Source of the DNA: Hyphomicrobiales bacterium
GTDB lineage: Bacteria > Pseudomonadota > Alphaproteobacteria > Rhizobiales > OSC116
Direction: 5' to 3'
DNA length: 64,000 nucleotides
Assembly (NCBI GenBank): GCA_013214705.1
Contig: JABSRZ010000004.1
Span: forward strand, 186,001-250,000
Both the position numbers and the translations under genes were made by a program. Every line of letters starts with the position of its first letter. The first letter of the stretch is position 1. The notes beneath the pieces are model-generated. The model was not told the origin of the DNA. It saw nothing but the letters and a program-made list of their open reading frames with translations, and searched no databases. This document shows positions 17,436 through 19,801 of this stretch, piece after piece.

Positions 17436-17456
17436 AATAATTGCTCCGCAATTATT
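17436..17456 (-). terminator. Hairpin overlapping the leuA stop codon
   Basis: AATAATTGC, a 3-nt loop and GCAATTATT form a perfect 9-bp inverted repeat spanning the leuA stop (17452-17454). There is no strong T-run after it, so termination is plausible but not proven. The adjacent 17234-17435 spacer is GC-rich with small inverted repeats (ACCAAC-GAA-GTTGGT) and holds no gene. Confidence 0.45.
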
Positions 17457-19002
17457 GCGCATGCAATTGCTGGCGTTTTAGCATTAATTTATTCAATGCC
17501 GCAATATAGGCCTTCGCCGAGGCCACAATGGTGTCAGTATCTACGCCCTGGCCGATGACCTGTTTGCCATTCTCTTCCAACCGCACACTCACATGGGCTT
17601 GGGCATCCGTGCCTTCGGTGACCGCTTGCACTTGGTAGCGCAACAAGTTTTGGGTGTCGGTGGTTAAGGCCTTAATGGCGTTATAAGTGGCATCCACCCC
17701 GCCATCGCCAGTGGCAATGTGGTTTTTGTGCTTGCCGTCTATATTTAACACCAAAATAGCTTCGGCAGGCCGGTCTGAACTTACCGCCACCTCTAACGAC
17801 ACCAAGCTAATGCTTTTATTGGCCTCGCTAATTTCACTATCGACCAACGCAATAATGTCTTCATCATAAATGGTTTTCTTTTTATCGGCCAATTGTTTAA
17901 ACCGGGTGAACGCATCCAAAAATGCATTGTCGCCTAGTTCATAACCCAAATCGGATAATTTTTCTTTAAACGCATGGCGGCCAGAATGTTTGCCCATCAC
18001 CAAATTTGTGGCTTTCACACCCACGCTTTCGGGTGTCATAATCTCATAGGTTTCGGCATTTTTTAACATGCCATCTTGATGTATGCCGCTTTCATGCGCA
18101 AACGCATTTTTGCCAACAATGGCTTTGTTATATTGCACCGGAAACGCCGCAACCGCAGCCACCAAGTTAGACGCGCGCACCAATAGCTGGCTTTGGATGC
18201 CGGTATCAAACGGCAAAATATCTTGCCTTGTGCGCATGCTCATCACAATTTCTTCCAGCGCGGCATTGCCCGCCCGTTCGCCCAAGCCATTTATGGTGCA
18301 TTCCACTTGGCGCGCACCGCCAGCTATACCGGCCATGGTATTCGCAACTGCAAAGCCCAAATCATTATGGCAATGGGTCGAAAACACCACTTTATCGGCA
18401 TTTGGAACGCGGTTTAGCACCATTTCAAACATCGATTGATATTCATTAGGCAAGCTATAGCCAACGGTGTCTGGCAAATTAATGGTGGTTGCGCCAGCTT
18501 TAATGGCGGTTTCGACCACCCGACATAAAAAATCAGGCTCGGTGCGGGTGGCATCTTCGGCCGACCATTCGACATCATCAGTGAAGCTTTTTGCACGCGC
18601 CACGCTGGCGGCAATTTTTTCTAACACGTCATCTGGCGACATGTTTAATTTATACTTCATATGCAATGGGCTGGTGGCGATAAATGTATGAATGCGCGAT
18701 TTTGGCGCGTATTTTACGGCCTCACCCGCGCGGTCTATATCTTTAAAACTGGCACGTGCCAAGCCGCAAATTACTGCGTTTTTGGCATTTTTGGCAATTT
18801 CACTCACCGCTTCAAAATCACCATCTGAGGCGATGGGAAAACCGGCTTCAATTATATCCACGCCCATATCATCCAGCAACGCAGCAACTTCTACTTTTTG
18901 CTCTAATGTCATGGAGGCACCGGGGCTTTGTTCGCCATCGCGCAATGTCGTATCGAATATAACTATATTTTCTGGTATTTGCTGTGGGTTCATTTTTGTC
19001 AT
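17452..19002 (-). CDS. leuA: 2-isopropylmalate synthase
   Basis: 516 residues, the first committed enzyme of leucine synthesis (acetyl-CoA plus 2-oxoisovalerate). The catalytic TIM barrel carries FDTTLRDGEQSPGASM and HCHNDLGFAVANTMAGI (metal His pair). AFAHESGIHQDGMLKN and MGKHSGRHAF follow. The C-terminal regulatory LeuA domain (about 390-510) is present, so leucine feedback is expected by family. ATG at 19002 or the in-frame ATG nine bases later (MNPQQIPEN) may be the start; GAGG lies 14 bases before the first. The upstream leader peptide indicates leucine-responsive attenuation as well. Confidence 0.96.
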   Translation of the reverse strand: MTKMNPQQIPENIVIFDTTLRDGEQSPGASMTLEQKVEVAALLDDMGVDIIEAGFPIASDGDFEAVSEIAKNAKNAVICGLARASFKDIDRAGEAVKYAPKSRIHTFIATSPLHMKYKLNMSPDDVLEKIAASVARAKSFTDDVEWSAEDATRTEPDFLCRVVETAIKAGATTINLPDTVGYSLPNEYQSMFEMVLNRVPNADKVVFSTHCHNDLGFAVANTMAGIAGGARQVECTINGLGERAGNAALEEIVMSMRTRQDILPFDTGIQSQLLVRASNLVAAVAAFPVQYNKAIVGKNAFAHESGIHQDGMLKNAETYEIMTPESVGVKATNLVMGKHSGRHAFKEKLSDLGYELGDNAFLDAFTRFKQLADKKKTIYDEDIIALVDSEISEANKSISLVSLEVAVSSDRPAEAILVLNIDGKHKNHIATGDGGVDATYNAIKALTTDTQNLLRYQVQAVTEGTDAQAHVSVRLEENGKQVIGQGVDTDTIVASAKAYIAALNKLMLKRQQLHAQ

Positions 19003-19038
19003 TATAAATCTGCACCCTCAGGCCGAGCGGCGCAGTTC

Positions 19039-19175
19039 CTGCTTATTTAAATTATAATTTGGGTGAAAGGTGCCAGTAGGCCGCAGCTAAACATAGGTTT
19101 AACTGTCCCCTAAACATTGGCTTAAATTTATGAGGTAAATTTTCGCTTATCAAATGCCTAGGGGTTAATAAGCAG
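19039..19175 (-). promoter_or_regulatory. Putative leucine attenuator structures upstream of leuA
   Basis: Three pairings can be drawn in the transcript. First, 19153-19164 (containing the leader stop) pairs with 19107-19118 over 12 positions, including two G-U pairs. Second, 19084-19105 folds into a 9-bp hairpin with a 4-nt loop (CAGTTAAAC / GTTTAGCTG). Third, the last leucine codons of the leader (19167-19175, CTGCTTATT) are perfectly complementary to 19039-19047 just upstream of leuA. A ribosome stalled on the leucine codons would block the first and third pairings. No U-tract terminator is seen, so control may be Rho-dependent or translational. Confidence 0.5.
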
Positions 19176-19334
19176 CAGGAGCTCGTTTGCAAAGTTAAGT
19201 AGCAGTAAGGCAGAAATAGTGACAGTCGCGTATAGCGCTGTTTTGGTTAAAAAAGCTTGCTCGGCAGTTTGCGTAGCAGCAATTGCGCGGGCTTGTTTTT
19301 TATTTTGGTGGTTTCTATAATGATTGTTCATCAT
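19158..19334 (-). CDS. leuA leader peptide, 58 codons with two Leu runs
   Basis: This is a small ORF not in standard gene lists. It begins ATGATG at 19334, has AAAGGAAG about 8 bases upstream, and ends at TAG (19158). The encoded peptide ends with SALLLLNFANELLLLINP: four consecutive Leu codons (TTA CTG CTA CTT), then four more (CTC CTG CTG CTT) and Ile just before the stop. Runs of the regulating amino acid near the stop of a short ORF upstream of its biosynthetic gene are the signature of attenuation leaders. At 58 residues it is longer than classic enterobacterial leaders. A small membrane peptide is the alternative reading. Confidence 0.65.
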   Translation of the reverse strand: MMNNHYRNHQNKKQARAIAATQTAEQAFLTKTALYATVTISALLLLNFANELLLLINP

Positions 19335-19725
19335 GAAACTTCCTTTTGGCTCAGTTAGGGCTCAACTTCCGATATCTATAGCCTATTATAATATTTCTAT
19401 AAATCAACCTATAAATGGAAAATATTACCAATTAATAAAATATATGGTGAATCTGTTTCAAATCGATACAGGTTTTAAGCTTTATGCAAGGTTAACCGCG
19501 CAAACGGCTGCCGCCAAACAGATGCAGCGGCCAAAATATGCCGATGCAGCATTCGAAAAATGGGCATAATATCGCAATTAAATAGCAAATTAACAATGTG
19601 CCAAAGTTTTACCCAAAAAAACATTATAAAACTCAAAAAATCATTGGACAGAGACTTATTGCTGGCATATAACCCGCTTCAACAGACGCAAGCATAAAAG
19701 CCTCGTACTTTACTGCATTGCCGAT
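19335..19725. other. Intergenic region between the leuA leader and tRNA-Lys
   Basis: AT-rich, with no supported gene. On the minus strand a -10-like TATAAT (19385-19390) lies about 50 bases upstream of the leader ATG and may be the leuA promoter, although a matching -35 is not evident. A plus-strand open frame (19324-19569) overlaps the leader and shows no recognisable protein. Confidence 0.4.
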
Positions 19726-19801
19726 GGGCCCTTAGCTCAGCTGGTAGAGCAACTGACTTTTAATCAGTAGGTCGATGGTTCGAACCCATCAGGGCTCACC
19801 A
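19726..19801 (+). tRNA. tRNA-Lys (anticodon TTT)
   Basis: 76 nt with encoded CCA. The acceptor GGGCCCT pairs with AGGGCTC. The D-arm has AGCTCAGCTGGTAGAGC, the anticodon stem-loop is ACTGA-CTTTTAA-TCAGT giving anticodon TTT, and the T-arm has GGTTCGAACCC. A strong terminator follows. The 3' half is the attachment site of the downstream genomic islands. Confidence 0.97.

Follow-up and report, generated by a model that had tools for sequence, protein, structure and literature searches.

The leuA gene in the window (the whole stretch of 64,000 nucleotides that was analysed) is preceded by a short leader reading frame that ends in leucine codons, and this leader belongs to an RNA element that recurs upstream of leuA across the Alphaproteobacteria. 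As delineated from the sequences, the element consists of the leucine codons, a near-invariant CUUA, and then a hairpin, P1, whose 5' arm usually contains the stop codon of the leader. Computation establishes that the leader is conserved, that P1 covaries, and that the leucine codons are complementary to the start region of leuA in a locus-specific way (the pairing called P0). We read the element as a leucine switch that acts in cis on leuA, is operated by the ribosome and exerts its effect mainly on translation initiation, and we give this reading a probability of about 0.6. If it is true, one old RNA switch that uses translation, not a terminator, governs leucine synthesis in much of the Alphaproteobacteria, and it offers a clean test case of sensor codons that double as the mask of the target gene's start. 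The features in the window are collected in Table 1.

Table 1. Features of the leuA leader region, in positions of the window.
Feature	Position	Strand	Remarks
Ribosome site AAGGA of leader ORF	19341..19345	minus	read directly; AGGA in 5/5 congeneric sequences
Leader ORF	19158..19334	minus	58 codons; ends LLLLINP-stop, SALLLLNFANELLLLINP
Leader ORF from conserved second ATG	start 19331	minus	57 codons
Terminal Leu codons CTC CTG CTG CTT (sensor codons)	19170..19181	minus	from the sequence and the codon table of relatives
P0 5' strand, UCCUGCUGCUUAUU	19167..19180	minus	Leu codons
CUUA, near-invariant	19169..19172	minus	last Leu codon CTT and first A of the next codon
P1 5' arm, CCCCUAGGCAUU	19153..19164	minus	contains leader stop codon
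P1 3' arm, AAUGUUUAGGGG	19107..19118	minus	
P2 5' arm, CAGUUAAAC	19097..19105	minus	seen in this genus; same in 5/5 congeneric sequences
P2 3' arm, GUUUAGCUG	19084..19092	minus	seen in this genus
P0 3' strand, AAUAAGCAGGA	19037..19047	minus	CAGGA in 5/5 congeneric sequences
P3 5' arm, CUGCGCC	19029..19035	minus	adjoins P0
P3 3' arm, GGUGCAG	19010..19016	minus	overlaps leuA ribosome site
leuA ribosome site UGAGGG	19015..19020	minus	read directly; 12 bases before ATG
leuA, 2-isopropylmalate synthase	17452..19002	minus	Pfam PF00682, PF08502, PF22617

An initial annotation of the window had proposed a 58-codon frame with a good ribosome site. The frame is there, on the minus strand and directly before leuA, with AAGGA 6 nt 5' of its ATG. 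The leuA product has the Pfam HMGL-like, LeuA_dimer and HCS_D2 domains and scores above the NCBIfam cut-offs for NF002087 and TIGR00973 (2-isopropylmalate synthase). In the window's own genome, a single leuA passes the threshold used and a single match to the element is convincing; two further model matches have E above 1. The leader folds more stably than its shuffles (z -4.07 over 371 nt, z -3.34 over 221 nt). In the window and 20 relatives, no Rfam 15 family other than tRNA reached the gathering threshold, and a promoter scan around the leader returned a count equal to chance. A tRNA gene lies divergently upstream of the leader, at window 19726-19798 on the plus strand; a tRNA is likewise found upstream of leuA at the congeneric locus L004.

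In our collection, the family consists of this genus only, with six genomes, five of which have leuA at threshold. Conservation in close relatives had been set beforehand as the check on the leader, and the ORF, the Leu run and P1 are all found in the congeners with leuA. The leader frame is open in all five leuA-bearing genomes, the window's own included, and is 51-53 codons long in the congeners. The second ATG is shared by all five sequences, while TTG replaces the first ATG in two. The congeners have an unbroken Leu run followed by INP; in the window, inserted residues that all four congeners lack divide the run. Within the genus, TAG or TAA serves as the stop codon in P1. P1 (with 12 pairs), P2 and a CAGGAACUGC block are common to the five genomes. 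P1 and P2 account for the two stems that the initial annotation had placed between leader and leuA, and a third, P3, is predicted to cover the leuA ribosome site. Since the ORF, the Leu run and P1 are conserved in the congeners and across the window's order, the leader is far beyond chance.

The wider distribution was followed first in 112 loci of the genus and its relatives (L003-L114). A leader ending in Leu codons and Pro-stop stands upstream of leuA in 88 of these, traits that are partly built in because loci entered the first set only with a final Pro and with three or more Leu among the 11 terminal codons. Twenty-one of the other 24 loci are titled Pelagibacteraceae, and two of these 21 have short upstream sequence. 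No element was seen at the SAR11 (Pelagibacteraceae) loci, where the sequence 5' of leuA is as short as 158 bases in L059 and 244 in L066. A loose pattern had picked up two SAR11 ORFs (L072, L082), which were false matches and were dropped before counting. A model of the element, R1, was then built from 41 sequences. It matches 209/249 genomes of the window's order, nearly always once per genome, and 81/289 genomes of a draw from the class, 4 of the 81 belonging to the window's order. A draw from the phylum, class members included, gave matches in 46/299 genomes. Forty-four of these belong to the class, and the remaining two matches are weak (E 0.002 and 0.004). Among the genomes listed, family f24 has none with a model match and 13 without, and the four genomes of family f4 (1.3-1.4 Mb) have no match.

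The better-scoring matches were read individually, namely 110 of the 209 order genomes and 70 from the class list, which is not a random sample; leuA lies downstream on the same strand in 179 of these 180. A script had seen it in 176 (173 of the usual type and 3 of another form), and reading the remaining matches added L224, L316 and L192. For the sets retrieved with R1, which came from listed matches only, CT[TA]A was a requirement. Eleven genomes are listed with two matches. In nine of them, both matches are one hairpin, taken once from each strand; in G199, the second match is an unrelated inverted repeat. In G170 it is real: this genome has two leuA genes, each with its own element (L159, L160), and there the leader passes the usual stop (TGG) with P1 kept.

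P1 has eleven pairs in the model alignment of 41 sequences, with 95.8% of the cells paired. Thirty-five cells are changed on both sides, against 12.4 +/- 3.1 in shuffles, and 0/500 shuffles were as high; the number of pairs that have a two-sided change (5) is not above that of shuffles (4.4). Pairing falls to 59% when the partner is slid by one column. The leader stop codon covaries along with the rest of the stem, UGA going with UCA, UAA with UUA, and UAG with UUA or CUA. The alignment of relatives suggested at the outset comes out with a conserved Leu run and with P1 pairing conserved through covariation. The CCCC/GGGG base of P1 is invariant among the 41 sequences, in part as a consequence of the search pattern, which demanded GGGG in the 3' arm. 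In family f74, the base is CCUC in all 12 loci examined, opposite GAGG in seven and opposite GGGG, with a U-G pair, in five. Apart from the pairing and the CCCC/GGGG base, the letters of the P1 stem and loop vary. The model still matches P1 where the usual stop is read through as TGG, at L159, L160, L176, L287 and L347-L349.

The codons leading into P1 are constrained as letters. In a table of 84 loci, CTT at codon -5, an initial A at codon -4 and CCC at codon -2 each hold in 83, and NRC at codon -3 holds in all 84; neither CTT, the A-first codon, NRC nor the third base of CCC had been selected for in the first set, and L052, L055, L076 and L085 were set aside from the table because their 3' arm was missed by the pattern. 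By comparison, CTT makes up 4% of the Leu codons in leuA itself. At sensor codons -8 to -6, CTC/CTT account for 78% of Leu codons, against 32% in leuA (134 loci). In the first part of the leader (39 codons), variable columns number 20, 14 and 28 at codon positions 1, 2 and 3, and the many amino-acid changes there indicate that selection at the peptide level is at most weak in that part.

Selection on the end of the peptide would be expected if the nascent leader peptide sensed free leucine and halted at its Pro-stop end in the manner of TnaC. The leaders of the relatives nearly always end L-x-x-P-stop, and TnaC, which senses tryptophan, likewise has Pro beside its stop. However, the Pro codon is CCC or CCT, which P1 pairing explains; f74 has CTC (Leu) in the place of Pro in 12/12 loci examined; several leaders pass the usual stop (TGG) with P1 still found by the model; and the amino acids encoded at -4 and -3 vary although the A-first and NRC letters stay the same. 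The C-terminal amino acids are not conserved in the way of TnaC, with Leu for Pro in f74 and the usual stop missed elsewhere. The change of Pro to Leu, the missed stops and the retained codon letters point to the RNA, not the peptide, as the thing selected, and we regard a leucine-sensing peptide as highly improbable.

The 9-base complement between the Leu codons and the stretch before leuA, claimed in the initial annotation, is exact in the window (CTGCTTATT/AATAAGCAG). Taken alone it is just modestly beyond chance, since at least 9 contiguous complementary bases occur in 1.4% of 2000 dinucleotide shuffles of the 104-nt stretch from P1 to leuA. It is not fully kept within the genus: the match is reduced to 5 (UCCUG/CAGGA) in L004-L006, and in L007 to 5 with a U-G pair, so that UCCUG/CAGGA is exact in 4/5 congeneric sequences. 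The full length is not conserved, yet the parent helix, P0, recurs in other lineages.

When the Leu region was compared with the leuA start region by a simple ungapped score, the signal over 88 loci was only modest (mean swap percentile 0.38). Duplex energies, controlled by permutation and for base composition, were used in its place. The Leu region pairs with its own leuA start region at -18.3 kcal/mol and with permuted partners at -16.6, with 0/5000 permutations as strong (n = 207); a coding-sequence control on the first 80 loci gave 391/5000. With composition controlled, the values are -2.06 for own and -0.33 for swapped partners (Wilcoxon p 4e-11, n = 240), where the p-values for P0 are not those of independent samples because the loci are related. 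The composition-controlled excess is large in leaders of the LRL type (CUU CGA CUU A; 42 loci; -5.4 vs -0.6) and small in the LLL set (198 loci; -1.34 vs -0.27). Contiguous pairing of 7 bases through the variable codon -4 occurs in 31/240 loci with their own partners, about double the 6.5% with swapped ones; at 8 bases, the LRL set has no excess of contiguous pairing through that codon. In f74, at least 7 perfect pairs cross codons -5/-4 in 8 of 12 loci, mostly at the ribosome site; shuffles give a mean of 0.2 loci and a maximum of 2 in 1000 rounds. One of the remaining loci has 6 perfect pairs and three have none. Both CUAA variants among the eight are matched on the opposite strand, in L192 (UCCUAAUC/GAUUAGGA) and L344 (UAAGCCG/CGGCUUA), while a third CUAA leader, L319, has no match. 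P0 is strong in the f74 and LRL lineages and weak in the window's order.

In whole-leader folds of 190 loci, the predicted pairing of the leuA ribosome site by the Leu region is 0.43, against 0.30 with swapped tails, and exceeds one half in 83/190 loci, against 29% when swapped. Masking the Leu region raises the predicted exposure of the ribosome site from 0.23 to 0.43 (190 loci, window's genus excluded), and swapped tails gain nearly as much, from 0.29 to 0.44. The leuA start codons were picked by ribosome-site score; L005 and L007 were assigned a wrong upstream start, which puts slight noise in the duplex-energy, contiguous-pairing, whole-leader fold and TAAGGA figures.

P0 by itself does not explain why CUUA is near-invariant. 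CUUA is kept even where the leuA start region is without its complement, and a single fixed partner for it in all lineages was not found (TAAGGA occurs in 17/207 leuA start regions). Invariance beyond what P0 explains could mean that P1 and CUUA together form the binding site of an RNA-binding protein, with the leader ORF secondary, and a protein has likewise been proposed for an actinobacterial leuA element in the available excerpt of its description (PMC1262725). Against such a binding site, the reading frame, the Leu codons and the codon bias are all kept, and the P1 loop and stem letters vary except for the pairing and the CCCC/GGGG base. We consider it very unlikely. Many leaders outside the window's order have few Leu codons, placed around Arg CGA, which is lean for a leucine sensor. 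At class level, an Arg codon, nearly always CGA, stands between the last two Leu codons in 13/15 of L185-L199 and in 26 of the 39 placed loci of L281-L320.

P0 is weak in the window's genus, where it falls 35-45 bases 5' of the leuA ATG and misses the ribosome site. The occluding element there would be P3, which is predicted to cover the ribosome site; two of its pairs are changed on both sides among the five congeneric sequences, which is thin evidence. Since the ribosome site is in P3 and not in P0, the genus may use a relay.

A ribosome-operated switch at translation initiation would work as follows. In the resting state, P1 would be formed and the Leu-codon strand would pair with the leuA start region, leaving leuA poorly translated; in the window's genus, the resting P0 would abut P3, which would cover the ribosome site. 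Under a shortage of charged tRNA-Leu, the leader ribosome would halt at the Leu codons, a few bases short of P1, and would keep the P0 strand within it; the start region of leuA would then be open, and LeuA would be produced. With ample leucine, the ribosome would run on to the stop codon within P1 and leave, and P1 and P0 would re-form. Because P1 lies a few bases past the sensor codons and P0 is made of the sensor codons, a ribosome stalled for leucine would remove P0. That the Leu codons pair with the start region of leuA speaks for control at the level of translation. We infer that the leader is translated, that the ribosome stalls, that control has this direction and that its target is translation, not transcription, as we do every dynamic step above; translational attenuation follows most simply.

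The same anatomy, a Leu-rich leader and then competing helices, is that of known transcription attenuators, in which the stall would choose between P1 and a downstream hairpin and so control termination, whether intrinsic or Rho-dependent. When the 5' arm of P1 is masked, as by a ribosome on the stop codon, the 3' arm finds partners downstream with a mean probability of 0.45, a small gain over swapped controls (0.39). Terminator-like structures are present in 29/240 leaders, more than in each of five mononucleotide shuffles (10, 22, 25, 14, 15), and the congeneric loci L004, L005 and L007 each have a weak T-rich candidate; however, the excess is slight and most leaders are without any. An intrinsic U-tract terminator as a general feature is rejected on these counts (29/240 vs 10-25). 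Untranslated leuA RNA could also be exposed to Rho. We judge control by termination unlikely. The initial annotation had called the element a leucine attenuation leader and had remarked on the missing U-tract terminator: the leucine leader is well supported, classical transcription attenuation is unsupported, and terminator-like structures between leader and leuA are indeed little above chance.

Translational attenuation by sensor codons can be placed among known systems. The leuL and trpL leaders of E. coli are ribosome-mediated transcription attenuators. They share with the element an end-product-rich leader peptide, competing helices and the position of a ribosome as the signal, and the putative leader ORF here is likewise rich in the end product and stands before a biosynthetic gene. 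Unlike in the leuL/trpL type, U-tract terminators are little above chance and the Leu codons have the start region of the target gene as their pairing partner. In translational attenuators of the ermC type, the signal is a drug. The likeness is that a ribosome stalled on the leader would expose a masked ribosome site, whereas the signal here would be a hungry codon.

The nearest known thing, as far as the available excerpt describes it, is the LEU element of actinobacterial leuA genes (Seliverstov et al. 2005, PMC1262725). It too has a leader ORF with a run of Leu codons upstream of leuA. It can fold as a pseudoknot or an alternative hairpin, its base stem joining the Leu codons to the ribosome site of leuA, and the excerpt does not describe classical terminator parts. 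One part of it states that Leu-codon mutations were without influence on regulation and proposes a protein; elsewhere in it, leader mutations had some effect, inconsistent with classical attenuation. Going by that description, the element here differs in its covarying hairpin, the stop codon in the 5' arm, the fixed distance, CUUA and CCCC. Pairing of the kind that makes up the LEU base stem is strong in the f74 and LRL lineages and weak in the order of the window; in the window itself it lies 5' of the ribosome site. We put at somewhat less than even odds the larger proposal that this is an unnamed, Alphaproteobacteria-wide RNA family, in which sensor codons hide the leuA start and the stop codon sits in a covarying hairpin at a fixed distance, which is independent of the LEU element, which has moved onto a distantly related form of leuA, and in which CUUA has a second purpose.

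For the Alphaproteobacteria themselves, PMC1273637 found five other motifs and names an ilvB leader peptide as previously described, with Vitreschak et al. 2004 as the source. The ilvB case is alike in being an amino-acid leader peptide of the branched-chain pathway in the same bacterial class; it differs in the gene, and the available excerpt gives no structure. The accessible parts of PMC10117765 (ribosome profiling of Sinorhizobium meliloti), PMC4833913, PMC2965389 and PMC2573895 hold nothing on a leuA leader. Among the matches listed, from an incomplete coverage of the literature, there was no report of an alphaproteobacterial leuA leader, and the novelty of the bare leader is not certain.

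The link to leucine is strengthened by a distantly related form of leuA (KYRPWPP...DLRDGNQ), which the element precedes in G055, G091, G072, G124, G152 and G198 (L154, L155, L157, L229, L232, L238). The L155 product is a 2-isopropylmalate synthase above the NCBIfam cut-off for NF002991 and is 28% identical to the window's LeuA over 327 residues; the other five genes were recognised by motif alone. Finding the element on two distantly related enzymes of the same step is good evidence that it answers to leucine, and model R1 provides an annotation rule that marks leuA, this form included. In f74, there are loci where another gene intervenes. At L310, a small cupin gene begins directly after the element, and the fetched stretch ends before leuA could appear. 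At L192, a small cupin gene (Pfam Cupin_2) directly follows the element, with leuA about 480 bases on, and this cupin may be part of a leucine-controlled operon.
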